Part shown: positions 4,667 through 23,937 of the stretch, one piece after another
Layout of the letters: each line of letters starts with the position of its first letter
How positions within the stretch are numbered: position 1 is the stretch's first letter
DNA from: a virus
Virus record (IMG/VR): IMGVR_UViG_3300025128_000325
Coordinates: 1 to 24,234 of that record
Direction: 5' to 3' (one strand)
DNA: 24,234 nucleotides
Notes under the pieces: model-generated
Seen by the model: the letters and a program-made list of their open reading frames with translations, nothing else
What the model was told of the DNA's origin: nothing
Databases searched by the model: none
Translations under genes and position numbers: made by a program

Positions 4667-5416
4667 TATAGGAGAAGTAATATGCCTAAACATCCCGGAC
4701 GTCCGAAGGGATCGGATACAGTTCCTGCTTGGTTAACACCCGGAGAATTTGTTATGAACGCTGAAGCTGCTCGTATGTTTGCTCCTCAGATACAAGCTAT
4801 GAATGATCGTGGGAGAGCCGTACAAAAGGCTCAAGGGGGTACAATACCTGAGATGGGAACAGTACCTATTCCAACGACACCTAACCCCAGTGCTGCTTAT
4901 CACGAAGGTGGTGCAGTTACAAAGTCTATTGTACCAAAAGCTAGGAAACAACCTCCAGCTTGGATGAATCAAATAGAGATGAGAGAGGGTGGATTAAAAA
5001 GAGAAATCTATATAGACTCTGAAGGGTATCCTACAGTAGGTATAGGTCATAGATTACCTGACGAATATAAAAGTAAAAAAGGTCAAGTGTTATTCTCTGA
5101 TGATCAATTAAATAAATGGTTTACTGAAGACATTGCAAAAGCTACTACTAATGCTTCTGACAACATATCTAATTTTGATTCTTTAGATAGTAATGTACAA
5201 GGTGCATTAATTAATCAAGCTTTTCAATTAGGTGGAACTGGTCAGAAAGGTTTTGAAAAAATGATTAAAGCTATTGAAGATGGAGATATGAATAAAGCAG
5301 CTTCTGAAGCTTTAGATTCAAACTGGTTTAGTCAAACTCCAAAGAGAGCATTAGATTTAGCTAGTATACTTAGAGGTGAGGAACCCAAAATGGAATATAA
5401 TAAAGGTGGACCAGTA
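4223..5416 (+). repeat. Recurring GG(P/S/A)V motif in two adjacent virion genes
   Basis: The motif GG[PSA]V is coded at 4223, 4304 and 4511 in the 410-residue protein and at 4907 and 5405 in the 1166-residue protein. Several copies are followed by Tyr-rich text (GGPVEYY, GGPVQYKKYGG, GGPVPRYYG). The last two copies bracket the lysozyme domain. They may be flexible joints, binding motifs or processing sites; the sequence alone cannot say which. Confidence 0.5.
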
Positions 5417-8182
5417 CCAAGATACTATGGATTAGGAAGTTTTGTACGATCATTGTTTGGTACAGATGATGATGATGATAGGTTTACTATGCCAGATGCA
5501 ACTGCTTTGTCAGGTACTCCTAACTATATGTTCAGTAATAAAAATGATATTGTAGTACCTCCAAATGTACAAACTAAAATAAACACCGATGGTAGTTGGT
5601 TTAATTCAGAATATGCTGGAGAGCCATTACATATGGGAGATTCAAATTTTGATGTACCAGAACCTCCTAAGTTTTCTGATCAAGATTTAATTCAGAACTC
5701 TTCAAATGCTTTAAAAGATGTACCACTTATATCCTTAAAGGACGATGACTTAGGTGCATTAAAAGAGTTAGGTAATGATGACGCAGAAGATATTCTTAAA
5801 CAAAGAAGAATAGCAAATGAGTATGGATCATACGTACCAACTAATTTTAATCCTGAAAGAAGAAGATTAGAAGATGAAGCATATAATAGATTTGGTATGA
5901 ATCTAAATGATGATAATACTTTATCTCCTGTAGAAAAACCAGTAAATCTTGATCCAAGGATAGGTGTATCTGAATACTATGGAGTTCCTAAAGACTATGG
6001 AAGTGGTATGAGTTTGAATGAAGATGCACGAGCATCATTACCACCTAGGTTTATGGACCCACGTACAAGAAAAATACCAACTGGTCCTGCAAGTTATGAT
6101 CAAATGCCACCAAGAAGAACGGCAGATATAGATATAGGTGAAGGTTCATTTGGTTATGGACAATTTAAAAGACCTGACGATCCTACTTTTAAACAGTTAA
6201 TACGAGATGGTGAAGGTAATAATGTTTTAAGAGGAGACTTAGGGATGCCTATGGACCCTGTTAATGTAGATTCAAATGACCCAAGGGTAGGTGTACCTGA
6301 ATACTATGGAGTTCCTAAAGTAAACGAATCAAAAAGGGGTCGTATAGGAGAAAAAGTTGAACCTGTAGTTGAATCAACATTCTTAGCTAATGCTACACCA
6401 GAGCAAATAGATCAGTATAATACTGAAAAGGAAAGACGTGAACTAGAAAAGAAAACTATTGGTAAAACAGGGTTGAATGTTAATGAAGCAGAAAGACAAG
6501 AAATCTATAAACAGAAAGTTCTAGAAGCAGAAGAATTTATTGAAACTGGATCTGAAGAAGCGTTTGCTAAAGCAAAGAATGAAAAAGAAAGATTAGAAGT
6601 TGTTGAGAAAATAAAAAAGGCTAATGCATTAATTGCAAACTCTAAAACTAAAGCTAGAATAGAAGCTAATAAAGATAAGTTATTAAAGAGAGGTCAAGCT
6701 ACACAAATTAATCAAGAATTAGATAGTAAAATATCTGCTCTTCAAAAGGAATTAGGAACAGCTACAGATCCTAATCATAAAGCATTTTTAGAAAAAGAAA
6801 TAGATAGGTTACAAGGTAATAAAGTTGATACTACTACAGATGTATTAAGTAAAGATGATTCTAGTAGTGATGGTGGTAATGTAAGCCCTAAGAATTCTCC
6901 AGAAGTTAACTTAGATAATTCAGAAAAATCTAACAATCAGCAATTAGAAAATGATCCTACTATTGAAGATAAAGGGAAGAACGCTCCACCAGAAGTTAAA
7001 GCAGCTGCAGTAGATGAAATAAAAAGTGTCTTTGGTGAGATGTTTGATGTTGAAGAACTTACACGAATGGCTATACTATATCTAGGTGCTAGGGCAACTG
7101 GTGCATCTGGATCACAAGCTATGGCATTTGCTGGTAAGAGTTACCTATCTCGATTAGATAATAAGTATAAACAGAATAAGTTTAATGAACATTACAATTC
7201 ATTACTTAAAGGTAATAATTTTACAAGGGATTCTATGGAACTTTATAAGTATACTAAAGATCCTAATGTCTTAGTTACTAAATCATCTTTACGAAAAGGA
7301 AGTGTATCAGGAGATCCTAAAGGTGAAGTGTTTTACACAAAAGCTAATGTAAGAGGTGTAAGAGGTCAGAAATTAAGATTGTTTAAAAATGATGAAGTAG
7401 ATTCAACTGGTAAGAAAACAGGTAATACATTTTATACAACATCTGATGGAACACCTATAAGTCAACAACAGTTAGAGATGTATTTTACTACTGATGAATC
7501 TACTATACCGGAAACTGATGCGTACATAAAATCAAGAAATGAAGTTGCAACAGGGATACGTCCTGTGATAAAAGAAAAGATTGATATGTTTAAACCTACT
7601 GATACTAATGAAGGTAATCCTGCAATGTATAAGATTGTAGGTAATCATAAAGAAAAAATTACAATGGAAGTAGCTAAATTTTCTAAAGATCTTCAATTAA
7701 AAGAAGGTCAAATGGTGACTGCAAATATTATTGAGAATGCTTTTGGTAAACTACAAGATGATATTGATGATGGTTTTTATGATGATGTTAGCACTATAAC
7801 ATTTACTGATTACTTAGATCGAGCTTATATAGGTACGAAGGTAGGTAATGAGAAATACTTTACATATGAGACTTCAAATGGTAAATCAAAAACAGACTCA
7901 GCTAAAGATGTTGATATTGCACTTGATGGATTAACTAGAGGTGTTAAGTCAAAGGGTGGTGGTAAATGGATAAATACTCCTCCTATTGTCATTAATGATT
8001 TGTTATTAAGACAAGCTAAAATTAAACTTGGAAATGGTGAAGGTAGTATGAATGATGCAGAAAGAGCTAAATTTAATGCAGCTTATGAAAAGTCAATTAA
8101 AACTAAACCACAATCAAAAATGTTATTCTATTTAGAAACTGAAATTAATGAATTAAATTATGATGATTATTTTAAAAGATAA
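4682..8182 (+). CDS. Internal virion protein with embedded T4-type lysozyme domain
   Basis: 1166 residues. After an N-terminal segment of about 50 residues (MPKHPGRPKGSDTVPAWLTP) there is a GH24-like lysozyme domain at about 95-232. REGG (Glu102), YIDSEGYP (Asp112) and PTVGIGH (Thr118) match the catalytic Glu11-Asp20-Thr26 arrangement of T4 lysozyme, and a helical C-lobe with W-F and P-x-R elements follows. The long middle (250-750) is charged and low-complexity, with a duplicated DPR(I/V)GV(S/P)EYYGVPK motif. From about 770 a segment F-D-V-E-E-L-T-R-M-A resembles helical regions in marine T7-like internal proteins. The expected job is local peptidoglycan cutting during DNA ejection, as T7 gp16 does with a different enzyme fold. 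The Shine-Dalgarno is AGGAGAAGTAAT before ATG. Confidence 0.8.
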   Translation: MPKHPGRPKGSDTVPAWLTPGEFVMNAEAARMFAPQIQAMNDRGRAVQKAQGGTIPEMGTVPIPTTPNPSAAYHEGGAVTKSIVPKARKQPPAWMNQIEMREGGLKREIYIDSEGYPTVGIGHRLPDEYKSKKGQVLFSDDQLNKWFTEDIAKATTNASDNISNFDSLDSNVQGALINQAFQLGGTGQKGFEKMIKAIEDGDMNKAASEALDSNWFSQTPKRALDLASILRGEEPKMEYNKGGPVPRYYGLGSFVRSLFGTDDDDDRFTMPDATALSGTPNYMFSNKNDIVVPPNVQTKINTDGSWFNSEYAGEPLHMGDSNFDVPEPPKFSDQDLIQNSSNALKDVPLISLKDDDLGALKELGNDDAEDILKQRRIANEYGSYVPTNFNPERRRLEDEAYNRFGMNLNDDNTLSPVEKPVNLDPRIGVSEYYGVPKDYGSGMSLNEDARASLPPRFMDPRTRKIPTGPASYDQMPPRRTADIDIGEGSFGYGQFKRPDDPTFKQLIRDGEGNNVLRGDLGMPMDPVNVDSNDPRVGVPEYYGVPKVNESKRGRIGEKVEPVVESTFLANATPEQIDQYNTEKERRELEKKTIGKTGLNVNEAERQEIYKQKVLEAEEFIETGSEEAFAKAKNEKERLEVVEKIKKANALIANSKTKARIEANKDKLLKRGQATQINQELDSKISALQKELGTATDPNHKAFLEKEIDRLQGNKVDTTTDVLSKDDSSSDGGNVSPKNSPEVNLDNSEKSNNQQLENDPTIEDKGKNAPPEVKAAAVDEIKSVFGEMFDVEELTRMAILYLGARATGASGSQAMAFAGKSYLSRLDNKYKQNKFNEHYNSLLKGNNFTRDSMELYKYTKDPNVLVTKSSLRKGSVSGDPKGEVFYTKANVRGVRGQKLRLFKNDEVDSTGKKTGNTFYTTSDGTPISQQQLEMYFTTDESTIPETDAYIKSRNEVATGIRPVIKEKIDMFKPTDTNEGNPAMYKIVGNHKEKITMEVAKFSKDLQLKEGQMVTANIIENAFGKLQDDIDDGFYDDVSTITFTDYLDRAYIGTKVGNEKYFTYETSNGKSKTDSAKDVDIALDGLTRGVKSKGGGKWINTPPIVINDLLLRQAKIKLGNGEGSMNDAERAKFNAAYEKSIKTKPQSKMLFYLETEINELNYDDYFKR
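5951..6319 (+). repeat. Duplicated DPR-GV-EYYGVPK motif in lysozyme-bearing virion protein
   Basis: Two 14-residue copies, DPRIGVSEYYGVPK (5951-5992) and DPRVGVPEYYGVPK (6278-6319), in the otherwise low-complexity middle of the 1166-residue protein. The conservation inside diverged surroundings suggests a short functional peptide, perhaps for docking to another virion protein. Confidence 0.7.
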
Positions 8183-8206: not shown

Positions 8207-11200
8207 ATGGGATTAATAAATGATGTAGTCCAACAAGACAACAGGCAGTTAGGGCAGACTGGATTTTCATTCCTTGATGCTGATACTCTCCAAAAAGGTC
8301 AAGGTGAAAACGCTAAAAAGTATAGGCTTATGGGGTATGATTCTCCAGAAGTTGCAAAGATAATAGGTGGTAAGTTCAAAGCTGGCACAGCTGGTGGAGA
8401 ACAAGCCACTCAGACTATCTGGGAATTAGCAAACAAATTTGGATATACAAACATAAAGCCACAAGTTGATGATAAAGGTAATGAAGTATTAGATTCAACT
8501 GGTACTCGTACTATGGCTGATTTGTATAATGAAAATGGTGAATCTTTTAAAGATAAACTTTTACAAGAAGGTATATTTAATCCAACAAGAAGGTTTGCTA
8601 CTGATCGAGATAGGATGATATCTTCTCTTGGAGATATAGATAGGTCATACAATGCTTTAAATAATGTTAAGCTTACTGGTGATGATGAGGTTTGGGATAA
8701 AGCTGCAAGCGTCTTAAGGAAAGCAGAGCATGATGAAGGTGAGAAAAGGTTAGGCTTAAAAGGTGTAGCTCCTACAGAAGCTGCACTAGAAGCTGCCAAT
8801 GCGTTAGGGTATGGTGATTACTTTTTACAAAACACTGTAGCTACTAGACGTAGAGATAGAAACTTAAACAATGAATCACTCAATCCTCTATCGGATTCGT
8901 GGGAGAAGGGGTGGTTAAGTGTATTAGAATCATCATACGGATTCCTTGAGATGGCAGGTGATACTTTAGGATCTGAATATGTATCTGAGATAGGTGAAGA
9001 AGGAGTTCAAAGAGCCAGAGAAAATATGGCTTACTATGGTACTGCTCTTACAGATTACAGAGATGTTAATGGTGTAATGGATGCTATATCCTTTGTCAGT
9101 AATAACATGGCTCTATCATTACCATACATGGCTGTTACAGTAGGTGGTATGATGGCTGGTAATCTTGCAACACCGGGCATAGCTGCATTAGGTTTAGGAG
9201 CTAAAGGATTTCAAGCTGCAAAGTATGGAGCGCAAACCCTTGCACCTTCTTCTGTTTATGCAGGTATGACTTGGAACGAGATGGAAGGAGAGAAGAGTGC
9301 TGCTATTGCTTTTGGATCTGGTATTGCTCAAGCAACATTAGATAGGCTAGGTATCTTTGGAATATCTAGAGTTGGTAAAGCACCTAAGAAACTGTTTAAT
9401 GAAGCCAGTGAACAACTAACAAACCTTCAGAAAACAATTAGGTTAGGTAAAACTAAAAACGGAACATACAAAAAGAACAAACTTGGTAAAGCAGCTGAAG
9501 AAGCTGAGACTATATTTAATAGATTAGCAGGTAGTTCTTTAGGTGTACAGTTTGGTCTAACTGCTGCGAAAGAGCTGACTAGGGAACAAGCTGAACAAGT
9601 AGTTGCTTCTGCTTCTCGTAGAGAAATAGCTAATATGTTTAAAGATGGTGCTAAGATTGCTAAAGAACAGTATGCTGGTAAGAAAGTTATAATGGATCTT
9701 GTAGGTAATACAGGACGAGCTGGATTATCAGAAGGTATTACTGAACTTGGGCAAGAAGTAACTGGTTATGTATCTGCTGTTATCGGATCAGATAAACTAT
9801 TTGATATGAATGAACTTAAGCATCGTGCAATTACAGCAGCTATCGTGGGTACTGCAGTAGGTGGTCCATTAGGCGCACCGGGAACTGTAGTGAATGCAGC
9901 AGCTTGGCACAATGTAGATAGACTGATAGGTAATGCAGAGCTAAATGAAGCATCTGAAAGCTATCAGTTTGCTGAACAAGAATCAGATTTAAAAACTAAT
10001 TTACAGAATGCTAAAGATACTAGACAAGAAATAGAAGTAAACAAATCTAAAAAAAATACTATACCAATAACATCTCTTGATGAGAAAGCAACTAGAGAAG
10101 AATCAAGACAGAAAGATGAGAATATTGAAGATAGAGTTTTAAATGCATTAAAGAAATTTCCTAATTTATTTAAAGGAGCAACTGCTGCAATCTTTGATAA
10201 GACATTAATGAGAGATTCTGCTATTGCTAGAAAGATGGGTTCCCAATTTGGAGCATTTCTTCAAAAAATAAATCCGGGATCTACTTATGAATCTAGTAAA
10301 TTATTAAATAGATCTTTCTTAAGAAATATAGTTGAAGATCCTGATGTTTATTATAATGCTGTTATGGGTAATAACAAGAACACAAGAGCTAACAGACGAT
10401 CAGCTAGTGAACGTATGTATAAACTATGGGAACTTAGTCAAGATAAAAACGGTAACTTTAATAAAAATAAATCTAGAAAACAAGCAAAGCAATTAAACAT
10501 GACTGACGCTGAAGCGAATGCTCATATTGGACTTATTGAAAGTTTACAAAGATTATCTGATGAAGGTTTGAAACAATCTAGAGCAAGTGGATTATCTCTT
10601 AAAAAACTTAGAAGTTATATGTCAAAGTATAGATCTATAAGTGTTAAAGCTATAGCTAAAAACAGACCAAAGTTTGAAGCAGCTTTAATGTCTGAATATA
10701 AAATATCTCAGAACGAAGCAAAAGAAATAACAGATCGTATCCTTAGTAATAATATAACTAATATAGATGAAGCATTTACTGTTGCAAAAGGGGAACTAAC
10801 TCCGGGATTTGCACATGAACGTACAATGAAACTCTCTGAAAAAGAAAGTATGAAAGAGTTTTTAGAACAAGATGTGTTTGCTAACGTCGCTTCTTACACG
10901 CATAGTTTATCTAGACATGTAGCACATCATCAATTTGTTGGTAAGGATGGAGAAGTATTAGCTTGGGAACTTAAAAAGATGGAGCTAGAGCTAACTCCTA
11001 AATATGGTGCTGAAAAAGCTAGACAGATAACTGACAAGGTTGCTCTTGGGATGAAGAACTATCTTGACGCAGAGTCAGGTAACTACAAACGAGCTACTAG
11101 TGATGCAGGTAAAAAGTTAGAATCAATTCAAAGAAGCTTTATGTTGTTTACAACACTGGCTGGATTACCTCTTGCTACTATATCTTCTTTTGTTGAATTA

Positions 11201-12454
11201 GCTTTAACAGGTAGATCATTAACAGCAAGTCAATTAAATGGTTTATTTAAAGCACAGGGTAAAGAACTTGCTAATACATTATATAGAGGTATGATTGATA
11301 TAGCTAATAAAGCACCTGCCGTAAATGTAAGTGAAGCTAATACAATGAGTGAAGCTCAAATTGTATTAAAGAATTTAGGGTATCATGAGTATGATGTAGG
11401 TGCTGCTACAACTGTAGGTGCTACTGAGATCAATGCTTGGCAACAAGATATAATGAAGTCATTCTTTAAATGGAATGGTCTTCAAGGTTGGACTAACTAC
11501 ACTCGTGCTGTAAGAGCATCTATCGCTGTTGATTTTATAAATGATAAATTAAAAATAATTCATACATATAATATACAGAATGTAGATGGTAAAGCACCTA
11601 TGACTAGGGAAGTTCAATTAGCTAGAGAGTCTTTACGAAATCTAGGTATGGATGTTGACTTCATGGTTGACTTATTTGAACGATTTGAAAACAATGGTGA
11701 TGGTCAATCTGCTAATCAAGTATTTAAAATGGATGCAACTATACCAGATGCTCATGTACCAGAAGGTGAATTACCATTACGTACAAGTATACTATCTAAA
11801 CAAGAAGAACAGATGCGTAACGAAAACATCAATGAAGCTATGTTTAATTTTATTAATGAAGCAGTTGCATTACCTATGTCTTCAAACAGACCATTGATCT
11901 ATCAAGATCCTAGGTTTGCTTTATTCTTTCAGTTCCAAGGTTTCATGGCAACATTCACAGCTAATCATATTCCTCGTATGTGGGGTGAGTACGTTAAACG
12001 TGGTTCACCTGAGATGAAGTATAGTGCATTTGCTACAATGGCAACTATGATCCTGTTAGGGTTCACTTCACAAGCATTGAAAGATATGATTAAATATGAA
12101 GAAGGTGAGAATGAATACTTAGACACACCAAGATATATTAGAAGGGGTATTACTTCGTCTGGATTACTTGGTACATATGAACGTGTTCTTGATCAGTTCT
12201 TTCCAATGTACACTACCACTGCACCTAAAGATGAAGCGAATGGTAGATGGATGCTTCGTACAATAGCGAGTGAATCTCCTGCTGCAAGTAACCTTAAGAG
12301 ACTTGTAGATGGATTTGGTAATATAATAGAAGGTGAAGTTGGATCTGGTGTTAGAAAGATTGCAAAGTCTACACCTTTTATAGGCTCAGTTAATAGAGCA
12401 ACTAATCAAATCGGTGAAGCTGCAGGTAAGTTAGATTTTAAAGATCAAGAATAG
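8207..12454 (+). CDS. Giant ejection protein with N-terminal SNase-like nuclease domain
   Basis: 1415 residues, placed where T7 has gp15/gp16. Residues about 18-128 match staphylococcal nuclease: DADTL (Asp26), YRLMGYDSPE (Arg40, Asp45, Glu48) and TRTMADLYNENGESFKDKLL (Arg101). The spacings 14, 5 and 3 between Asp26, Arg40, Asp45 and Glu48 equal those between Asp21, Arg35, Asp40 and Glu43 of the enzyme, so a Ca-dependent nuclease is plausible. Hydrophobic, Gly/Ala-rich stretches at about 301-332, 540-565, 978-1000 and 1270-1290 could insert in a membrane, as the T7 ejection tunnel does. The C-terminal third resembles domains found at the ends of large phage polyvalent proteins (LPD38-like), by memory of pattern only. 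It would be packaged in the core and ejected. The Shine-Dalgarno is AAGGAGAG. Confidence 0.75.
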   Translation: MGLINDVVQQDNRQLGQTGFSFLDADTLQKGQGENAKKYRLMGYDSPEVAKIIGGKFKAGTAGGEQATQTIWELANKFGYTNIKPQVDDKGNEVLDSTGTRTMADLYNENGESFKDKLLQEGIFNPTRRFATDRDRMISSLGDIDRSYNALNNVKLTGDDEVWDKAASVLRKAEHDEGEKRLGLKGVAPTEAALEAANALGYGDYFLQNTVATRRRDRNLNNESLNPLSDSWEKGWLSVLESSYGFLEMAGDTLGSEYVSEIGEEGVQRARENMAYYGTALTDYRDVNGVMDAISFVSNNMALSLPYMAVTVGGMMAGNLATPGIAALGLGAKGFQAAKYGAQTLAPSSVYAGMTWNEMEGEKSAAIAFGSGIAQATLDRLGIFGISRVGKAPKKLFNEASEQLTNLQKTIRLGKTKNGTYKKNKLGKAAEEAETIFNRLAGSSLGVQFGLTAAKELTREQAEQVVASASRREIANMFKDGAKIAKEQYAGKKVIMDLVGNTGRAGLSEGITELGQEVTGYVSAVIGSDKLFDMNELKHRAITAAIVGTAVGGPLGAPGTVVNAAAWHNVDRLIGNAELNEASESYQFAEQESDLKTNLQNAKDTRQEIEVNKSKKNTIPITSLDEKATREESRQKDENIEDRVLNALKKFPNLFKGATAAIFDKTLMRDSAIARKMGSQFGAFLQKINPGSTYESSKLLNRSFLRNIVEDPDVYYNAVMGNNKNTRANRRSASERMYKLWELSQDKNGNFNKNKSRKQAKQLNMTDAEANAHIGLIESLQRLSDEGLKQSRASGLSLKKLRSYMSKYRSISVKAIAKNRPKFEAALMSEYKISQNEAKEITDRILSNNITNIDEAFTVAKGELTPGFAHERTMKLSEKESMKEFLEQDVFANVASYTHSLSRHVAHHQFVGKDGEVLAWELKKMELELTPKYGAEKARQITDKVALGMKNYLDAESGNYKRATSDAGKKLESIQRSFMLFTTLAGLPLATISSFVELALTGRSLTASQLNGLFKAQGKELANTLYRGMIDIANKAPAVNVSEANTMSEAQIVLKNLGYHEYDVGAATTVGATEINAWQQDIMKSFFKWNGLQGWTNYTRAVRASIAVDFINDKLKIIHTYNIQNVDGKAPMTREVQLARESLRNLGMDVDFMVDLFERFENNGDGQSANQVFKMDATIPDAHVPEGELPLRTSILSKQEEQMRNENINEAMFNFINEAVALPMSSNRPLIYQDPRFALFFQFQGFMATFTANHIPRMWGEYVKRGSPEMKYSAFATMATMILLGFTSQALKDMIKYEEGENEYLDTPRYIRRGITSSGLLGTYERVLDQFFPMYTTTAPKDEANGRWMLRTIASESPAASNLKRLVDGFGNIIEGEVGSGVRKIAKSTPFIGSVNRATNQIGEAAGKLDFKDQE

Positions 12455-12463
12455 GAGAGTACT

Positions 12464-15400
12464 ATGGTAGTAAATGTTCAAAGCAGTTTTGATTTTGGCA
12501 AAGACCAGAAGGAAGACATTGTAAAAGAACAAACTAGTGCAGAAGCATTAAAGAAATCTTCTAATATTGCTTTAGAAAACTTACAAGAAGATAAAAAAGT
12601 AACCCTTCCTGTTGAACAGGTGGGGTCTACTTCTAACCTTATAGATTTTGAAAGTGTTAGAAATCCTAATTACACTCAGTCATCTGGAGCTAATCTTATT
12701 GATTATGTTATTAATAAACCAGATGCTATTGATGAGTATCAAGATAATACTATAGGTGCAAAAGAAGGTGTTGAATCTGATTTACCTATGGGATTTAATG
12801 CATTATCAAATGAAGCTCAAGAAGAACTTAAAAGATTTAATCGTGTAGGTGATACGATAGTAGATAGGTATAATAAAGTACCTAATACTAATGAACAGGC
12901 TGATGGTAATATGTTACCAAGAATAACAAGTATAATCGATCATACTAGAGCTGGTTTTGATATACCTACTCAAATTGAGCCTGATCCTAAAGCACTAAAC
13001 ATGACTCATGGAGAGCTTAGAGCATCGTTAGAACCACAGAATCAATCTATAGAAGGTACTGCAAGAGCTAATGCAACAGCGCAACCTTTAGGTAAGATAC
13101 TAAATAGGTTTGATTCTATAGAAAGAATACCTGTTGCTAATAAATATAAGACTGTAATAAAACCTGATATGCTTGCTATTGGATTAGCATTAACAGAAAA
13201 AAGTTTTGCTGAAGGAATGTATTCAGATCCTAAAGCTTACAAAGAAGCTATGTTAGAAGAGGCATCTAATCAAGAATTAGACTCTGAACAAAAGGCAGAA
13301 GTCTATAAAAAGATAAAAGACTTTGAAGATAAGATGGCAAGTGGTGACACTACTGCACCAATGGTAGCAAAGAACCAAGGATTAGAAGTGTTAGGTCGTG
13401 AGATTGCTCAAGAGTATCTTATAAAAACAGGTAGGCAAGATAGGATTGGTGAGATAGATTCTATAGAAGCTCAACATCTTGCAGGTTATTTTAAAGAACT
13501 ATGGTCTAAGAATCATTCTGTAGATGGTGATAATATATTTAGAGATGGTACTGGACTTGTTACTCGACAAGACTCTACACAAGATGGTACTCAAATTAAT
13601 TATCAGTTAACTCCATTAGGGGTTGAATATCTAACAGGAAGATCGGGTGGAAGTAGAGATGTATTAAACATATTATTCCCACCTAAAAATGTAAGACCTT
13701 CTAAACGTCCTCTACCACAAGGAAGACTTCCCGGTGCTGTAGGTGAGATGGTTAGAGATATGTCTGGTATCTTAGGTACAAATAAAAAATCATTTCCTAA
13801 AGATGAATATCTTCAAGAAGCTATGAATAATTTATCTACTATAGGACACGTTGTTAATAAGAGAAGAAATAAACTTCTATTAATAACAGCACTACCTTCT
13901 ATTGCACAATTAAACCCTGCGACAACAGAGGGTTCTAGGAATCCTGAAATGTGGATGGCTGAAATAAACAGCCTAGGCACTAAGAAGTACGAAGGGATTA
14001 TGGCTGAGAAGATAGCTCAAGATAGGAGAAGACAAGCTGCTAAAGATAGGGATGAAGAGTTTACAGAAGTTGCAATCAATCCTGCAGAAGAGTTTGCTAG
14101 GTTAAAGATAAAAGCTTCTAGAACTTTACAATCTATTCAGATGGAAAGAGAGGGTGAAAACTTTTTAACTTATTCTTTGCAAGGTTACTCAGGCAGAATT
14201 GCACCACAACAAACTTTATTTAATCCAACGTCTAATAAAGATGTTAGATTTGTAACAACATCAGGTGCAGCTGTTCAAGTAACTAAAGGTAGTAAGAAAG
14301 AAAAAGTATTAAGACAGATGTATGCTTTAATGTTGTTACCATCTATATCAAAAGGTGTAGCAGATGCTGAAGGACAAGGTACAGCTCGTGGAGCTGATAT
14401 GTTATTGCCAGAGGCAAGAGAGTTTCAACTCGAAGCTAATACTCGTCAGTTATATGAGTGGGGTCAGAGGTTAAGTACAGCTTTAGACAATACTATGTCT
14501 GATACATTATATGAGACTATAGCTAACGAAGTAGTTGGAGATGTAGATTACCAGCAATCTACTGCTGCTAAATCAAATTTAAGTCTTGGGTTAGATCCCT
14601 CTATAAGAGAAGATAAAGAACTTATAGATGCTATTGCAAAAAGAGGTGAAGATGGGTTAGCATTTATGGATGGTGTTATTGATTTCTATAATTATAAAAA
14701 TGCTATGGATAAAGGTATACCATTTCGTACATTCTTTAATGCTTATATAGATGGTAAGACTAATGGTCTTGCAACTAATGGGTTTCAACATGGACATTTA
14801 CCAACAGGTTTTGCAACTGGTGTTATACGTAATGGAAATATATCTTTATTAGATGGAGATAAAGATCTTAGAGATTATCTTCAAGAGATTAACTTACAAA
14901 TATTAGAAAATGATATAGGTGGATCTGCTACTGGTAATTTTAATAAAGTACTTGATGATTTTATGGTTGTATCTCGTGTTGTATTTTCAGATAGAGAACT
15001 TAACAAACAAACTACTATGACTTGGGGATATGGTGCAGAGCTTGCTACATTTAAAAAATCTATTGATGATGTAATAGATAAGTTTGTTGCTAAATATCAA
15101 TTTGAAAGTCAGAAAGGTCAATTATCACCAGAAGGTTTAACATTTTTACAATCACTAGATAAAGTGATGGGAGTTGGAACAGTTACGACTAGAACTGGAG
15201 ATAGTAGTCTACCTTCAGATATAAGAGAAGCGTTTGTAGAAAATATACATGCTTTATATGTTAAAGGTTTACAACAAACCCTATCACCTGATGTTATTAA
15301 AGCTAGAACTTTATTAAGAGGAGCTGCTATGGCTCATACTTTTCTAGATGAGCTTATGGTTTTTAAAACTCACAGTGGATATGAACTTAATGTAGGTGGT

Positions 15401-16249
15401 AAAGTATCTAAAGGATTAACAGCTGATACTAAATCAGGTAAATATGGATTTGATACTGTTGATGGTAAAGGTAATACAATAACTCAATATAATTATGAGA
15501 CTGCACAAACACCACAAGCAAAGACATCTCAAAAAGATGCAGGAGAAGTCACTTGGGGTGGAGCATTACCAGCACCTATACAATCTATTGATGGATCTGT
15601 TGTTGCTATGACTGTAGCAGGTGATAGTTGGAAAAGATTAAGTACTAACGCTAAGAAACCATATGTGCATACAATATATGATGCATTTAAAATGGATGTA
15701 GATAGTTATGAAACTGTTTTAGCTGAGTCTAATAAGAATTGGATGAAGATAAATGAAGATTGGAACTACATGCAACAAGCTCTTGAGTCTTTAGAAAATG
15801 CAATGGGTAAGTTTAAAAAGAAACTTAATACTAACCCTGATGCACCAATACCTAAACATACTGTTGATTATATAATGCATTTGTTTAGTCCTGTAAGAGA
15901 AGGTAGTAAAACTACTAATTTAAAATATAAATTAATTAAGCTAGATGATGAGCTACGTTTTATAAGTGCAGCAACTTCAAAACAAAGAAATAAAATAGCT
16001 TCTCTTATTGAGAGAGATCTTTACAATATTTTAACAAGGTCAGGTAAAGAACTTAAAGATGTAACTATGAGAGAGTATTCAATGTTTGTATCTAAATTTG
16101 CTTCAAGATTAAACTTAAGAAATCAAATGAGATCTCACATAGGTCTTATGAATAAAAATAAAAAAATCCTTCTAAAGAAAATAAAAGAAGAAGGACTAGG
16201 CTTTGACTTTAATGGTGAGTTTATACCATTACAGTACTACGCCCACTAA
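12464..16249 (+). CDS. Virion-encoded single-subunit RNA polymerase (second RNAP)
   Basis: 1261 residues, last gene of the virion-protein operon. From about residue 565 it follows the T7 RNA polymerase motif order. GYSGR (Arg578) is followed by LFNPTSNKDVRF, like the T7 GR motif and its FNPQGND. Motif A is YIDGKTNG (Asp763). Motif B has Arg844, Lys848 and Tyr856 in DRELNKQTTMTWGYG, with the exact spacing of T7 Arg627, Lys631 and Tyr639. PIQSIDGS (1038-1045) corresponds to the T7 VHSQDGS element. Motif C is IYDAF (Asp1073) instead of HDSF. The first 430 residues are unrecognised, and about 190 residues follow motif C. Its place behind ejection proteins suggests packaging and injection, as for phage N4 virion RNA polymerase. 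Catalytic residues are intact, so activity is expected. Virion location is an inference. The Shine-Dalgarno is AGGAGAG. Confidence 0.8.
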   Translation: MVVNVQSSFDFGKDQKEDIVKEQTSAEALKKSSNIALENLQEDKKVTLPVEQVGSTSNLIDFESVRNPNYTQSSGANLIDYVINKPDAIDEYQDNTIGAKEGVESDLPMGFNALSNEAQEELKRFNRVGDTIVDRYNKVPNTNEQADGNMLPRITSIIDHTRAGFDIPTQIEPDPKALNMTHGELRASLEPQNQSIEGTARANATAQPLGKILNRFDSIERIPVANKYKTVIKPDMLAIGLALTEKSFAEGMYSDPKAYKEAMLEEASNQELDSEQKAEVYKKIKDFEDKMASGDTTAPMVAKNQGLEVLGREIAQEYLIKTGRQDRIGEIDSIEAQHLAGYFKELWSKNHSVDGDNIFRDGTGLVTRQDSTQDGTQINYQLTPLGVEYLTGRSGGSRDVLNILFPPKNVRPSKRPLPQGRLPGAVGEMVRDMSGILGTNKKSFPKDEYLQEAMNNLSTIGHVVNKRRNKLLLITALPSIAQLNPATTEGSRNPEMWMAEINSLGTKKYEGIMAEKIAQDRRRQAAKDRDEEFTEVAINPAEEFARLKIKASRTLQSIQMEREGENFLTYSLQGYSGRIAPQQTLFNPTSNKDVRFVTTSGAAVQVTKGSKKEKVLRQMYALMLLPSISKGVADAEGQGTARGADMLLPEAREFQLEANTRQLYEWGQRLSTALDNTMSDTLYETIANEVVGDVDYQQSTAAKSNLSLGLDPSIREDKELIDAIAKRGEDGLAFMDGVIDFYNYKNAMDKGIPFRTFFNAYIDGKTNGLATNGFQHGHLPTGFATGVIRNGNISLLDGDKDLRDYLQEINLQILENDIGGSATGNFNKVLDDFMVVSRVVFSDRELNKQTTMTWGYGAELATFKKSIDDVIDKFVAKYQFESQKGQLSPEGLTFLQSLDKVMGVGTVTTRTGDSSLPSDIREAFVENIHALYVKGLQQTLSPDVIKARTLLRGAAMAHTFLDELMVFKTHSGYELNVGGKVSKGLTADTKSGKYGFDTVDGKGNTITQYNYETAQTPQAKTSQKDAGEVTWGGALPAPIQSIDGSVVAMTVAGDSWKRLSTNAKKPYVHTIYDAFKMDVDSYETVLAESNKNWMKINEDWNYMQQALESLENAMGKFKKKLNTNPDAPIPKHTVDYIMHLFSPVREGSKTTNLKYKLIKLDDELRFISAATSKQRNKIASLIERDLYNILTRSGKELKDVTMREYSMFVSKFASRLNLRNQMRSHIGLMNKNKKILLKKIKEEGLGFDFNGEFIPLQYYAH

Positions 16250-16298
16250 AAAAAATACCCCACTAGGAATCCGTAATGGAAACTTAGTGGGGTTTTTT
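16248..16298. terminator. Bidirectional intrinsic terminator between convergent operons
   Basis: An inverted repeat pairs CCCCACTA (16258-16265) with TAGTGGGG (16285-16292). A smaller inner stem TCC/GGA can form around a GTAAT loop. It is followed by six T on the + strand (16293-16298) and preceded by an A run (16248-16255) that serves as the T tract for the - strand. The stop codons of both converging operons lie at its edges, so it can end transcription from both sides. Confidence 0.9.
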
Positions 16299-16555: not shown

Positions 16556-18865
16556 CTATGCAAAGAAGTAGTCAGAGTCTTGGATATCGTTGATATCTAA
16601 TTCACCTAACTGTGGTTGTTGTACATCTAGACCCTCATGGTCTTCAGATATTAGCTCTTGTTCGAGCCAGTTGTAGAAGTTATCTACATCGTACATGTCT
16701 ATAAAGACTCTCTTGGTTATCCCAATGAGATGCTCTACGTCACATGCATGGGTTGAGAAGCTGTCATGTACTGCACCAAACTCTCCATGCCACTGATCTA
16801 CTACGAGAGCCATGTGACTTGCGTCGAGTGAGTGTATTACATTAGGTGATATGCCACACAAGAAACCTTGTATGTCAGGATAGTCAGTTGCTGTTTGAGC
16901 AACATGGTTTATCCCTTGATGACCACCAGTAGCTTTCTTGAATCCTGCAATAGTACCTCTACCTTTCTTACGTTCCATTCTAAACTTTGTGTATTCAACA
17001 TCAAAGCCAGATGGCGTAGTCCATTTAACTCTATCAGCACCATTACCATGTACAAGAATTGATTTGTATTTAGATGTAAACTTAACAAGATCATCTAACT
17101 CTTCAATCTCTTTATCAGTTATGTCCTTTGTCTTGAACAACTCTGATCTTCTTTCTACAGCTTCTTTGTATTCTTCTCCTGCTGGATTACCTTCTTGATC
17201 AACTTTCTTGAAGGAACCAAGCTCATACTTTGCAAGCTCCTGAAGGTAACTCATAGTTTGTAGGGGTCCGGGACATACATTATTGATTGCTTTGATTAGT
17301 ATCTTAGCAAACTTATTGCAGTCATCCTGAGTAATCCCATACTCTGTATGATAGTCTTCAGCTTTACAATCGAAGAACATGTTCTCAGCTATCTTCTTAG
17401 CACCTGCTGAGTATGCACGAGTCATACTACCACGTTTAGTAATACCTTTACGTATACTTTTCATTGGCATACGACTGAGTATATCAACTAATCGTTCATC
17501 ATCTGTTAAGTTGATTAGTTCTTTTGCAGTTTGTACATAGAAGTCTTTCTGGATTTCCCTAGGAATAAGACCTACCAGATCACCTGTTCGGTTATCTTTA
17601 GAGATAGCACCTAAGTGCTGCCATCCATTGTTAGATCCATCAATAGGTATTGGAAGATTCGTCATGAATATTCTTTTATCTTTGAGAGCTTTGTGATAAT
17701 CAGACCACTCGATACAACAAGCTAAGAATGTTACTATCTTTTCTGCTGTTGTATCAATCACACCATCAGTACCTAAGTCAATAAGACTATCCATGTTCTC
17801 ATTGACCCATCGTACCCTATCGTCCAGAGTCATCTTATCCACTGAGATATTATCTAGACCTTCTTCTTCTAGGTATGATTTGTAGTCTGCTTCGCACCAC
17901 TCTGGTATCTCATCGATTCCATAGCTTGCATTAAAGCTTGTAGCTGTATGTACTGCTAACCAATACAAACCTTCTTGTGTCATAGGTTTAGCTCTTGCGA
18001 ACTTCAACATGCCACGAGAGATGTCTGATCCCTGATAGTTTAGGAATGGTTCTTTGTAGTACAATCGTCCTCTATAGTCAGCATCTAAGTACTGATAGAA
18101 TACATCTTCATCTTTTAGTATGTTAGCTTTAGCTATAATAAAGCTCCATTCAAGTGCTTGACTACGACGCTTTAGTTCTTTTGCATCGTTGTCAGTGAAT
18201 GGTACAGAGCTAGAGAATATTTCTCTGTTCTTTTCTATAACTTCTAACACTCTTCTATTGATTCTCCATCCAGAGTTTTGCAGTTTATCTATTGACCGAA
18301 TGTATGGTCTGTCTAGTTCTAGATAATCCTTACCAGTTCTACCTTTTATCACAGGGAATTGTACTGATCCAGACTTCTGCATCATACTGTTGATCTTCCT
18401 TGGTGGTGTGACTGTTGTGTGTAATAGATTAACTCTAGAGAACATACCCGGTATGTCTGCCAGTTCTACCCATCGAGCTGTTGCAGATATTATATAACTA
18501 GTATTCCTAGTCTTAGGATAATAGATATCTACAAAGCCACATTGAAAGAATGCTTCAATGAATAGATCACCTAATCTTATTTGATTAAGCCAAGTCAGTT
18601 CCCTTCCTACTGATCTACTCACTTCTCTTCCTATCTTGGAAGATGCATTCGTTAAGCTAGCTGTTCCTACAGGATTAGAACTACTGCTTGTTGTAAACAA
18701 TATTTGTATAATCTGAAGGGAGTTCTTTACGAACCCCTCCATGTTTACTTCATACTCTTTATCGTATTGCAGAACAACTGCACCTGTATTTGCTTTTGGA
18801 TTCTTAGTGTTGACAGTCCTCACTTTATCAATGAGGTAGTCGATCACCTCATAAATAGGCTGCAT
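16556..18865 (-). CDS. T7-type single-subunit RNA polymerase
   Basis: 769 residues. Complete catalytic set: DYRGRLYY (Asp263-Arg267) followed by NYQGSD, motif A PIDGSNNGWQH (Asp409), motif B TKRGSMTRAYSAG (Lys477, Tyr485), VIHSLDASHM (677-686) and motif C VHDSFSTH (Asp701). The C-terminus DSDYFFA matches the ESDFAFA foot of T7 RNA polymerase. The GR motif is at residue 265 compared with about 423 in T7, so the N-terminal promoter-binding domain is some 160 residues shorter. The start is supported by AGGAGAA ending inside the primase gene, and an upstream in-frame extension seems unlikely. It would transcribe phage genes from phage promoters. Unlike T7, where it is gene 1, it lies near the distal end of the operon. 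Confidence 0.95.
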   Translation of the reverse strand: MQPIYEVIDYLIDKVRTVNTKNPKANTGAVVLQYDKEYEVNMEGFVKNSLQIIQILFTTSSSSNPVGTASLTNASSKIGREVSRSVGRELTWLNQIRLGDLFIEAFFQCGFVDIYYPKTRNTSYIISATARWVELADIPGMFSRVNLLHTTVTPPRKINSMMQKSGSVQFPVIKGRTGKDYLELDRPYIRSIDKLQNSGWRINRRVLEVIEKNREIFSSSVPFTDNDAKELKRRSQALEWSFIIAKANILKDEDVFYQYLDADYRGRLYYKEPFLNYQGSDISRGMLKFARAKPMTQEGLYWLAVHTATSFNASYGIDEIPEWCEADYKSYLEEEGLDNISVDKMTLDDRVRWVNENMDSLIDLGTDGVIDTTAEKIVTFLACCIEWSDYHKALKDKRIFMTNLPIPIDGSNNGWQHLGAISKDNRTGDLVGLIPREIQKDFYVQTAKELINLTDDERLVDILSRMPMKSIRKGITKRGSMTRAYSAGAKKIAENMFFDCKAEDYHTEYGITQDDCNKFAKILIKAINNVCPGPLQTMSYLQELAKYELGSFKKVDQEGNPAGEEYKEAVERRSELFKTKDITDKEIEELDDLVKFTSKYKSILVHGNGADRVKWTTPSGFDVEYTKFRMERKKGRGTIAGFKKATGGHQGINHVAQTATDYPDIQGFLCGISPNVIHSLDASHMALVVDQWHGEFGAVHDSFSTHACDVEHLIGITKRVFIDMYDVDNFYNWLEQELISEDHEGLDVQQPQLGELDINDIQDSDYFFA

Positions 18866-18868
18866 ATA

Positions 18869-20497
18869 TTATTCTCCTGTTGCTACAAAGTCAAAATCAA
18901 ATCCTCCTGTAGCAGTTAATCGGCTTGTATTGTGGTCATAGATTGCTGAACCTGCATTACCAGTTAGTCCAGTGAACCTAGATTTCAATACTCTAAACTT
19001 TATAACATTTCTCTCAGCATCTGATTCTGATACCAGATTTCTAGCGAAACTTATAATGTCAAACGAGATCTGTTTGATAGAACCAGATCCCTTGATGTCA
19101 TCGATAGAGGCTAGCTTACCCTCTTCGAAACTCTTAGTGCCACCTTGTGCTTTACGTAGGTGGGATATAAGACCCAACCATATGTTGTGTCTCTTAACAA
19201 TCTTAAGTAAGTCAGACATAATCTTATCAACTGCTTCATTACCTGAGAGGCCTTCAGATCCCTCAGAAACAGCGATAGTGATGTGATCTAGTACCAAGTA
19301 CTTACAACCCATCAATGCCATGTATTCGATCTTCTCAATGAGACTGGAGTCGCTTACAGATCCTGCATGATCTAGTAGTATCAATCTCTCATCACCAAAG
19401 ACTCTCTTGAAGCCATGTCTAGCTTCGTCTGGTGTTATTGGAGTGGGGTTCATTGTACCTCTACGAAGTTGCATAGATATAAACTTCTCTGCAGTATCTC
19501 CAATGCTTTCCTCAAGAGATATCAAACCTATCTTATCTTCTGTTTTATCTAGAAGATCTAAGATAACTTCTTTAATCACAGTACTCTTACCACTACCAGT
19601 ACCACTAGTGAATAGGGTAATTTCACCATGTCTAATACCTTTAACTTTCTTATTTAGTCCTTCTAAACAGTCAGGGTAAGGGATAGATTCTACGTTTTGT
19701 CTTTCAACAAACTGTTTCCATATCTGTTCTCCTGTTACAATACCTGCAGGTGACCAAGGTTGGGCATCCCATATGCATCTTTGTAATACTTCTGGACCCA
19801 GATCCTTTAAGACGTCACAGGCGTCCTTTCTAGGTAGGGAAGCGACTTTTACCTTACCCACCCCTATCATCTTAGCTACAGCCGCTGTACAGGCTTCTCC
19901 TGCCTCGTCCTGATCAAACGCTAGTACAATAGTTTCAAACCTGTTGATCCAATCTCTTTGTTCAAGCACTACTTTTGTAGCAGATGCAGAGGGTATAGAC
20001 ACACAAGAATAGAATCTTTTGTATCTTCTATAGAATGCTTCAGCGACTGCCATAGCATCTAGCTCACCTTCAGTGATGACTAACATCTTATTTGTATTCG
20101 ATACATTCTGACCGAATAACTCTACGTTTGAAAAGTTACCATGTATTCTAAAATCTTTTGGTAACATTCTTTCTTTATAAGCTACTATCTTACCCTTTCG
20201 AGTGTATGGATAGTAGTGTGACCCCGGTTTTCCATCTGGGGTTGTTGACATTTTTACACCATAGTGATCTGTTACTTCCTTAGAGATGTTACGACTAGGT
20301 ATAGGATAACTAGTATAACTAGTAATGTCGGTGACGATATCATAATTTGTATGGGTGATTGGTTCATCCCTTTCCTCAGTTACATTTAATTTCTTTGATC
20401 GATTACAACTAAAACAGGTTCCAACTCCATCGTCATAGGATGCAAATGCATCTGATGATCCACAGAAGTCGCATGGACCCATTGTATATCTACTCAT
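18869..20497 (-). CDS. Bifunctional DNA primase-helicase (T7 gp4-like)
   Basis: 542 residues, close to T7 gp4 (566). An N-terminal zinc ribbon (Cys9, Cys12, Cys28, Cys31) recognises the priming site. A TOPRIM primase fold follows, with TEGELDA (Glu143) and FDQDEAG (Asp195, Asp197). The RecA-type hexameric helicase has Walker A GTGSGKS (299-305), LEES (about 328-331), Walker B LVLDH (Asp404) and the SHLRKA element (His446). The C-terminal tail FDFDF is acidic and aromatic like the gp4 tail that contacts the polymerase. It unwinds DNA and lays down primers at the fork together with the polymerase encoded upstream. The gap to the RNA polymerase gene is three bases. Confidence 0.95.
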   Translation of the reverse strand: MSRYTMGPCDFCGSSDAFASYDDGVGTCFSCNRSKKLNVTEERDEPITHTNYDIVTDITSYTSYPIPSRNISKEVTDHYGVKMSTTPDGKPGSHYYPYTRKGKIVAYKERMLPKDFRIHGNFSNVELFGQNVSNTNKMLVITEGELDAMAVAEAFYRRYKRFYSCVSIPSASATKVVLEQRDWINRFETIVLAFDQDEAGEACTAAVAKMIGVGKVKVASLPRKDACDVLKDLGPEVLQRCIWDAQPWSPAGIVTGEQIWKQFVERQNVESIPYPDCLEGLNKKVKGIRHGEITLFTSGTGSGKSTVIKEVILDLLDKTEDKIGLISLEESIGDTAEKFISMQLRRGTMNPTPITPDEARHGFKRVFGDERLILLDHAGSVSDSSLIEKIEYMALMGCKYLVLDHITIAVSEGSEGLSGNEAVDKIMSDLLKIVKRHNIWLGLISHLRKAQGGTKSFEEGKLASIDDIKGSGSIKQISFDIISFARNLVSESDAERNVIKFRVLKSRFTGLTGNAGSAIYDHNTSRLTATGGFDFDFVATGE

Positions 20498-21608: not shown

Positions 21609-21942
21609 ACTTACTCCTTTCTTTATAAGTATCTTGGTTTACATATGTCTTTACTGCATGGCAGTTTTTACATAGCACTCTACATTTAGAGAGTTCTTTC
21701 TTTACTGTAGTCCATCTCTTAGATGAGATAGTTCTACCCTCACTGACAGTGAAAGCTTTCTTTCCGGGTTCTATATGGTCAAGGTCAAGAGCTACACCAT
21801 TAGCATTGTAGCCACATCGTTCGCAACCCTTCATCCTTTTCCATCTATGTATTATATCTTTACGATATCTTTGTCTTACCCATCTAGAAGTATACTTACA
21901 GCCATTATAGTTTCTACCCTTCGGTATTCCTTTACTCGCCAT
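21598..21942 (-). CDS. HNH endonuclease
   Basis: 114 residues. Two zinc-binding Cys pairs (Cys40/Cys43 and Cys91/Cys94) flank the HNH core ALDLDHIEPG (Asp55, His56) and CKNCH (His95). The N-terminus is basic. It is joined to the polymerase gene by a TAATG overlap and to the exonuclease gene by 11 bases. Freestanding HNH genes between replication genes are often homing endonucleases. The tight coupling on both sides suggests it has become part of the operon. Its target is unknown. Confidence 0.9.
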   Translation of the reverse strand: MASKGIPKGRNYNGCKYTSRWVRQRYRKDIIHRWKRMKGCERCGYNANGVALDLDHIEPGKKAFTVSEGRTISSKRWTTVKKELSKCRVLCKNCHAVKTYVNQDTYKERSKYAQ

Positions 21943-23774
21943 TAGTGTACATCTGCGTAGCTTGTGCCAACAACATAGTTACCACCATCCATACATTCAA
22001 CACCAAAAGTCTTAGGTGCTTCTCTGAAGGATTCCTGTAGTATCTCACCCACACGATTAGCATCTTTCTTTGATGCAACGTATGCAATTTCGTCATGGTA
22101 GAACAATCTAGGTTCAGCTTTTAGTCCTTCCTCTTTAATCTTCTTCATAGAATAAGATAAGGCAGCTTTACATGTGATACCTTCAGTCGTTTGAAGTAGG
22201 TAGTTTAAGCATTGATGTTCTGAGTTAGCAAATACAGGTCTGCCATCTAGTGCAGGGAACCATCCAGCTCCTTGACTGTGGAAAGTATTTGTCCATGTCT
22301 CACTCACCCACTTACGTAGATCATCTAATCCTTTGATACCTTTTGCAAACTTAGCTCTAGATTCTTTACCTACTTTAGCATTTGATTTACCAGTAAGTAC
22401 TTGACCAAGTTTAGCATCACCAGCTCCGAAGAGATAGGCATACAGGTAGCTTTTCGCTATACCTCTTGAGCATCCTAGGGAGTCGGCATTTCTTTGGTGT
22501 TGATCACCATAACATACCTCATGTGTGAAGTCTTCGTTACCAACGTAGTGACATAGACCACGTAATTGATTACCTGAACTATCTGCACCTACGACAACCA
22601 TATCATCGTCTGCTACAAATAATTCTCTTAGTTCTTTACCCCAAGGTGCATTCACACTAGGTAAGTTAACGATGATTTCATGTCTTGCTCTGAACGTAGG
22701 AGTACCTATGACCCACATGTTACCATGAATACGTCCATCCTTTACCTGCTCCAACCAGCCTCGTATAACAGAGGAACGATTTCGTAAGGTATAGTACTCG
22801 TCAATCATTTCTCCTAGCTCACCGAGCTTTAAAAGCGATGTGGTGGTAAGTTTAGGTGTAGTAGTTACCCAAGACCCATCTGGCATACGTTTCTTAATGA
22901 ACTCGTCTGGTTTCCAACCTTTCTTCGTTAGTAACCACTCTTTGACAAGATCTAGTTGCCCTAATGTCACACCATTTACAGTGAACCTTTGGAACTCTGT
23001 ACCTGCTGGCATTACGTGTGTATCTTCACACTTCACTTCATATCCTAGGTACTCTGAAAGAATTCGTGCAGTTACAATAGTGTAATCACCATTCTTTTTG
23101 TACTTAGGTGTCTTAGGTATTTTATCGATGTAGGTTTTATGTTCACCTAGTTCAGGCTCTATGGTACTACATATAGTATCCATCTTATCTTCCATCCTTT
23201 TAAGGTTTTTGTGTGCAAGTTCTACATCAAACTTCCAACCCTTTTCTCTAGCCATTACATTGAATACAGCTGCATCATGTTCTATTCGTAATCCCTTTCC
23301 GATTAAGGGGTTCTTAGAACTGATTTTATTGTATTCTTCTATTAGGTTATTGAAGACATCAACATTAAGTTTAACATCTTGGACACAGTATCGAAGCATC
23401 TCTCTACTGTAGGCACTCCAATCATCGTAGTGGATCTTAGAGTTGTTTAGGTGTTCTCCCCATCCTGCAAGACCTTGCTTGTGGGTACGTCTGTAGCGTA
23501 GGACTTGTGACATGATCCATGTATCGTAACATTTCTTTGAGTTAAGATCGGTTCCATACAGTTTGTCGACTTGTACGTTGTCAAATCCGATGATGTTATG
23601 CCCGATAAGTACTTGGGCGTTGTTGAGAAGCGATACCCCATCTTTGATAGGAGGGAGTTTATCGTCGTGGTCAGAGTATCTATATACATTTCCAGTCTCC
23701 ATGTTCTGTGCAACCAAACACCATATTACAGTTGCGTCAAATCCATCTGTTTCTATGTCATAACATAGTCTCAT
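21942..23774 (-). CDS. Family A DNA polymerase with 3'-5' exonuclease (T7 gp5-like)
   Basis: Exonuclease motifs are YDIETDG (Asp9, Glu11), GHNIIGFD (Asp68) and YCVQDV (Asp136), numbered from a GTG three codons upstream of the ATG chosen here. Polymerase motif A is GADSSGNQLR (Asp401). The O-helix has Arg440, Lys444, Tyr448 and Phe452 in SRGIAKSYLYAYLFGAG. Motif C is YHDE (Asp564, Glu565). It copies the genome with proofreading. At about 610 residues it is shorter than T7 gp5 (704), so any thioredoxin-binding insert must be small. ATG at 23774 is preferred over GTG at 23783 because GAAAG sits eight bases before it and it follows the upstream stop by one base. Confidence 0.95.
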   Translation of the reverse strand: MRLCYDIETDGFDATVIWCLVAQNMETGNVYRYSDHDDKLPPIKDGVSLLNNAQVLIGHNIIGFDNVQVDKLYGTDLNSKKCYDTWIMSQVLRYRRTHKQGLAGWGEHLNNSKIHYDDWSAYSREMLRYCVQDVKLNVDVFNNLIEEYNKISSKNPLIGKGLRIEHDAAVFNVMAREKGWKFDVELAHKNLKRMEDKMDTICSTIEPELGEHKTYIDKIPKTPKYKKNGDYTIVTARILSEYLGYEVKCEDTHVMPAGTEFQRFTVNGVTLGQLDLVKEWLLTKKGWKPDEFIKKRMPDGSWVTTTPKLTTTSLLKLGELGEMIDEYYTLRNRSSVIRGWLEQVKDGRIHGNMWVIGTPTFRARHEIIVNLPSVNAPWGKELRELFVADDDMVVVGADSSGNQLRGLCHYVGNEDFTHEVCYGDQHQRNADSLGCSRGIAKSYLYAYLFGAGDAKLGQVLTGKSNAKVGKESRAKFAKGIKGLDDLRKWVSETWTNTFHSQGAGWFPALDGRPVFANSEHQCLNYLLQTTEGITCKAALSYSMKKIKEEGLKAEPRLFYHDEIAYVASKKDANRVGEILQESFREAPKTFGVECMDGGNYVVGTSYADVH

Positions 23775-23775
23775 A

Positions 23776-23937
23776 TTATTCACTTTCTTTGTTTGTACAC
23801 TTTGGACAAATTCTTAGTTTGTCAAAGTTCATTCTGTTATATTTTACTTTACATCTCATACATGTGTATTCAGCTTGAAGCTTTTCAGCTATGAAATCCC
23901 AATAACCTAAGCCATCTAAGTCTTTATCATATGTCAT
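23776..23937 (-). CDS. Small zinc-ribbon protein
   Basis: 53 residues with two Cys pairs, CMRC and CPKC, set 16 residues apart, typical of a zinc ribbon that binds nucleic acid or protein. The frame extends upstream to 23979, but ATG at 23937 follows AAGGAAAGGAAG and overlaps the previous gene by only 11 bases, so it is the likely start. It stops one base before the polymerase ATG. It is co-expressed with the replication proteins. No further function can be named. Confidence 0.65.
   Translation of the reverse strand: MTYDKDLDGLGYWDFIAEKLQAEYTCMRCKVKYNRMNFDKLRICPKCTNKESE

Follow-up and report, generated by a model that had tools for sequence, protein, structure and literature searches.

The window, a 24,234-bp IMG/VR virus record, carries a run of three ejection-type genes, the last of which is predicted to encode a compact single-subunit RNA polymerase of the virion type (vRNAP; Table 1). 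The original prediction had placed a lysozyme in the first of these proteins and a nuclease in the second. The lysozyme is recovered as a Pfam domain, while the nuclease is weakly supported, with an SNase match (E=0.0015) in one relative and none in the window protein itself. A terminator starts 7 bp past the vRNAP gene and, as read from the sequence, ends the late unit; its loop exceeds the limit of the hairpin scan used here. The T7-type RNA polymerase expected some 300 bases away on the other strand lies 306 bp from the vRNAP stop codon, and a sigma-70 scan between the two polymerase genes gave nothing exceeding shuffled sequences. Wherever a relative's contig is long enough to judge, the same layout returns: ejection proteins 1 and 2 are followed by vRNAP, and this run converges with one of T7-type RNAP, primase/helicase and PolA. 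The vRNAP gene is thus not singular but recurs across a lineage whose nearest cultured member to the window phage is Roseobacter phage CRP-7. Though it had been described as T7-type, the window phage is no kin of T7 within the Autographiviridae and groups with the CRP-7-like marine podoviruses.

Table 1. Position and principal evidence for the features of the window (numbered on the window itself) and for the corresponding gene of CRP-7.
Feature	Coordinates	Strand	Remarks
Ejection-type protein 1	4682..8182	+	1166 aa, 0 Cys; lysozyme domain near N terminus, Pfam Phage_lysozyme 2.1e-9
Ejection-type protein 2	8207..12454	+	1415 aa, 0 Cys; PHROG virion structural protein 5.8e-19; possible SNase-like N terminus
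Compact virion-type single-subunit RNA polymerase (vRNAP, predicted)	12464..16249	+	1261 aa, ATG start, third ejection-type protein
YSGR, residues 575-578 (TxxGR/DxxGR motif)	14186..14197	+	R578 = N4 R424 (hhalign); GR invariant, 18 homologues
NPTSNKDVR, residues 587-595	14222..14248	+	K592/R595 = N4 K437/R440; K and R invariant, 18 homologues
Motif A DGKTNG, residues 763-768	14750..14767	+	Catalytic Asp763 = N4 D559 (hhalign); DGKT invariant
Motif B RELNKQTTMTWGYG, residues 844-857	14993..15034	+	R844/K848/Y856 = N4 R666/K670/Y678; R, K, M invariant
QSIDGS, residues 1040-1045	15581..15598	+	D1043 = N4 D929; D 17/18, E 1/18
Motif C YDAF, residues 1072-1075	15677..15688	+	Catalytic Asp1073 = N4 D951; DA invariant
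C-terminal QYYAH	16232..16246	+	Same end in most homologues (alignment)
Terminator, bidirectional	16257..16298	+	ACCCCACTA / 19-nt loop / TAGTGGGGT and T run; A run on other side
T7-type single-chain RNA polymerase	16556..18865	-	769 aa, 9 Cys; Pfam RNA_pol 2.6e-56; convergent with vRNAP
T7-type primase/helicase	18869..20497	-	phrog_239 E=1.1e-144
Family A DNA polymerase	21942..23783	-	Pfam DNA_pol_A 6e-17
CRP-7 gp33 (QBQ72826, hypothetical protein)	L004:9860-13567		1235 aa, vRNAP slot

Some further features of these genomes were recorded. A 44-bp direct repeat, 93% identical, lies inside the lysozyme-bearing gene (5950-5993 and 6277-6320), and an HNH endonuclease gene (21598-21942, minus strand) lies between the PolA and exonuclease genes. 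One contig, L120, which is binned in a Bacteroidetes MAG (UBA10340), keeps the vRNAP, T7-type RNAP and helicase end; the bin is a weak hint as to the host, at odds with Roseobacter as the host of CRP-7.

The open reading frame and all of the polymerase landmarks that had been claimed for it were confirmed at 12464-16249 on the plus strand, including LFNPTSNKD (residues 585-593), and R844, K848 and Y856 of motif B have the same 4/8 spacing as Arg627, Lys631 and Tyr639 of T7 RNAP. The polymerase domain reaches the C terminus, with no N4-like C-terminal domain (CTD). As a single sequence the protein gave no convincing match in Pfam, PHROGs, NCBIfam or the PDB, and tblastn against 50,697 GenBank phage records gave nothing useful, so that family profiles were needed for its identification. 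Matches to armadillo repeats and to prenylcysteine lyase were judged spurious. A direct scan with the protein returned one identical copy (L001) and one relative of 72% identity (L002), and scans with a two-sequence profile gave the same two contigs and no others. Since the neighbouring T7-type RNAP is 37% identical to gp30 of CRP-7, its closest GenBank match, we scanned IMG/VR with an alignment of this RNAP and, in each of the 56 resulting loci, read the gene convergent with it. An alignment built from these convergent genes found 23 loci. Four of the wider family's members had no relative among GenBank phages.

Among 18 homologues, which are 24-76% identical to the window protein, Gly577, Arg578, Lys592, Arg595, the Asp-Gly-Lys-Thr beginning at 763, Arg844, Lys848, Met852 and Asp1073 are invariant, and position 856 is tyrosine in all but one (17/18). 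Invariance over such a range of identity indicates that the landmark motifs are more than chance resemblances. With a cut-off as permissive as E=10, 12 of the 18 matched a PHROG annotated as RNA polymerase (best 1.8e-5), and one member matched the PHROG for virion RNA polymerase at 8e-4. The exception at position 856 is the protein of L021 (12619-16680), which has phenylalanine at the position of T7 Tyr639 (VMTEAFGKE) and a 6-aa insertion between the arginine and lysine of motif B. In T7 RNAP the Y639F mutation relaxes sugar discrimination.

Profile-profile comparison with hhalign relates the family to 12 Schitoviridae vRNAPs with E=2e-12 and a probability of 97.7 over 713 columns. In global mode the family scored 7e-19 with the Schitoviridae vRNAPs and 2e-11 with T7-type RNAPs; the ejection-protein-2 families, used as a control, gave 0.2-0.8. 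Beyond the pairs in Table 1, the alignment places Asn587 and Pro588 opposite Asn432 and Pro433 of the N4 enzyme, and Asn767 and Gly768 opposite Asn563 and Gly564. Except for Glu557, all of the catalytic and NTP-contacting residues of N4 that were tested correspond to identical residues in the window family that are invariant or nearly so; they include Lys437 and Arg440, which contact the initiating NTP (PMC4496689).

An AlphaFold2 model of residues 213-1261 (pLDDT 75, pTM 0.71) superposes on T7 RNAP with a Z-score of 23.4 (539 residues, 4.3 Å) and on the N4 mini-vRNAP 2po4 with a Z-score of 20.5 (609 residues, 5.0 Å). The best 50 matches listed by Foldseek, where E went down to 2e-14, and by VIA were all single-subunit RNAPs from T7, mitochondria or N4. 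The predicted model agrees with the expectation of a right-hand palm bringing Asp763 and Asp1073 together: besides the superpositions, Asp763 lies at the end of a strand and Asp1073 at the turn of a strand-turn-strand, with Arg844 and Lys848 on a helix. Motifs A, B and C are common to the whole polymerase superfamily, and by themselves would suit a family A DNA polymerase or a primase as well as an RNA polymerase. This reading is nevertheless highly improbable, as all of the listed structural matches are RNAPs, the GR motif and the equivalent of Tyr639 are both present, and the phage encodes a separate PolA and primase/helicase. Profile, structure and conservation thus strongly support the original proposal of a second, compact single-subunit RNAP beside the T7-type one, and, from its homology, its predicted fold and its intact catalytic residues, we regard it as near certain that the window protein is a single-subunit RNA polymerase.

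The gene in the same slot of CRP-7, gp33, is of similar size, faces a convergent T7-type RNAP and encodes no cysteine. It contains the motif-like blocks GTQPVRIDSNSG, DARQSNAG, KDYARGLVVAGLYGK, QGGDST and AIHDA, and hhalign aligns blocks of the protein to motif A, motif B, QSIDGS and motif C of the window family. Its motif B reads K...R, however, with the arginine and lysine swapped relative to the R...K of the window protein. The direct profile match between the CRP-7 group and the window family is weak (E=0.006), but the two are connected through an intermediate group, group B, which matches the window family at 1.2e-7 and the CRP-7 group at 2.3e-6. A merged 'CRP-7 family' alignment had given E=1e-18 to the window family; it was dropped as it mixed two groups, and the values from the split groups are used here. 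The AlphaFold2 model of a close CRP-7-type relative had a pLDDT of 48 and was too poor for use. We take gp33 for a probable, though unproven, vRNAP that has diverged and whose catalysis may be altered. Of RNAPs, the text of the CRP-7 paper mentions just the Autographivirinae-like one (PMC6918029).

Not one cysteine is found in 15 relatives of the window vRNAP (18,217 residues), nor in 16 proteins from the same slot on the CRP-7 side, 31 proteins in all with the relatives. The N4 enzyme, gp50, likewise has none in 3500 residues. By contrast, the T7-type RNAPs paired with these slot proteins contain 9-14 each. Virion proteins are often poor in cysteine, so this supports injection without proving it. 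The N4 vRNAP is the third ejection protein of its phage (PMC12633501). Taken together, the gene order, the lack of cysteine and the homology to N4 make it likely that the window vRNAP is packaged in the virion and injected. An active RNAP made late in the cell for the late genes, and left unpackaged, would also account for the position of the gene in the late unit. We think this improbable, more so than the loss of catalysis considered below, since cysteine is missing from every relative, unlike the adjoining intracellular RNAP, since the gene adjoins lysozyme-bearing ejection-type genes and is homologous to an injected enzyme, and since a T7-type RNAP is already present for the later genes.

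It is also conceivable that the protein keeps the polymerase fold and has lost catalysis, serving mainly as a part of the inner membrane or ejectosome in the role of T7 gp16; it does fill the slot of the third ejection protein. The swapped motif B of the CRP-7 type and the absence of the motif B arginine from group B suggest that some lineages may be degenerate. In the window family, by contrast, the catalytic residues are invariant at 24-76% identity, a constraint not needed in a protein with a purely structural role, and for the window protein we consider this reading unlikely.

Our preferred reading, which we hold to be very probable from the sequences and the predicted structure, is that of an active, compact virion RNAP. 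As a late product of the structural operon it would enter the particle along with the other two ejection proteins, and would be injected either before the genome or with it. Early genes would be transcribed in the cell by its single-subunit RNAP domain (approximately residues 409-1261), and the enzyme might also help to pull the DNA in, as has been proposed for N4. The T7-type RNAP, encoded in the early/middle operon, would then take over the later genes. We infer both the early-gene role and the hand-over.

The promoter that this enzyme would use is probably different from the GNA-loop hairpin of N4, given that the N4 contact residues are unconserved and that hairpins of the N4 type are lacking in the early regions of relatives. 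The promoter-contacting residues of N4, Lys114, Arg119, Trp129, Lys849, Asp901 and Arg904, are not conserved in the window-family alignment, and nor is Glu557; N4's own relatives also vary at these promoter-contact positions. A scan for C-GNA-G hairpins gave, as a positive control, three sites in the first 6 kb of N4 (0.08 expected), in agreement with its three known early promoters. Run on CRP-7 and four relatives (G001-G004), the scan that recovered all three gave no site in any early region. It gave one 5-bp case in the early region of a fifth relative, G006, and one case inside a gene in the window, which does not extend to the early end of its genome.

Several other repeats were seen in related genomes. 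An early intergenic region of L112 (3348-3439) has tandem palindromes, four or five in number and spaced at about 21 bp, which are also found in L113 (minus strand) and L117 (minus strand); the stems are largely kept and the loops varied among these three genomes, which are about 80-95% identical. The array is a candidate promoter, operator or origin. The divergent early/late intergenic region of L113 (7335-7895) is rich in CTCTCAG-type repeats. Hairpins with 3-nt loops precede an opposite-strand gene of ~130 aa (L112:7022-7038 and its equivalents, and L116:1420-1432), with AGGTTCTNNNAGAACCT in three genomes and a C-GAA-G hairpin in G006, and these may be terminators.

If the window vRNAP acts in this way, the annotation of a T7-type RNAP in CRP-7-like phages may be half the story, and their early transcription may be independent of the host RNAP. 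At about one third of the size of the N4 enzyme, it suggests that the large N4 domains are apparently dispensable for an injected polymerase. It would offer a minimal system for studying how a polymerase crosses a narrow tail and then refolds, and compact vRNAPs might serve as a new supply of small phage RNAPs. It is possible, though we propose it only tentatively, that a widespread marine podophage lineage including CRP-7 injects compact vRNAPs with a promoter unlike those of T7 and N4, that injection of a polymerase is a general podophage strategy, and that the giant Schitoviridae enzyme is a late elaboration of an enzyme of ~1200 residues.

With T7 RNAP and its Autographiviridae relatives the window vRNAP shares the fold and the catalytic residues. 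The T7 enzyme, however, is an early gene product with 12 cysteines that stays outside the virion, and the window phage has a separate homologue of it. The third ejection protein of the T7 gp16 type has a transglycosylase and no polymerase, whereas the third protein here has the predicted RNAP fold, and the lysozyme domain sits in ejection protein 1. Virion RNAPs have been described as unique to the Schitoviridae (PMC12633501). The nearest published proposal, a putative vRNAP of Stenotrophomonas phage StenR_269, also lies outside that family; the protein likewise has no cysteine, but is 2270 aa long (PMC10747016). An HHpred search gave its authors no function, and their models were of low confidence, the proposal being a guess from size, helix content and the lack of cysteine (PMC10747016).

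The closest known system is N4 gp50 (Schitoviridae; mini-vRNAP structures 2PO4, 3C2P and 3C3L). The two enzymes share the single-subunit RNAP core, with GR/NP..K..R, DG.TNG, R...K.......YG and motif C in register. Both genes are third in an ejection operon, at the end of the late cluster and convergent with early genes, and neither protein has cysteine. The window vRNAP does not have the giant three-domain form (~3400-3500 aa, with a large CTD) of N4-like vRNAPs: it has 1261 aa against 3500 (1117-1369 aa in complete relatives), lacks the CTD of ~1400 aa and has only ~400 aa before the RNAP domain. The partner differs as well, a single-chain T7-type RNAP standing in place of the heterodimeric RNAPII of N4, and the phage has a T7-type primase/helicase. 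The major head protein of N4 had no match in five relatives of the window phage, in a search run without a positive control. An RNAP of the injected type is known from N4-type phages, and what is new here is that it has about one third of the size, belongs to a different lineage and stands beside a T7-type RNAP.
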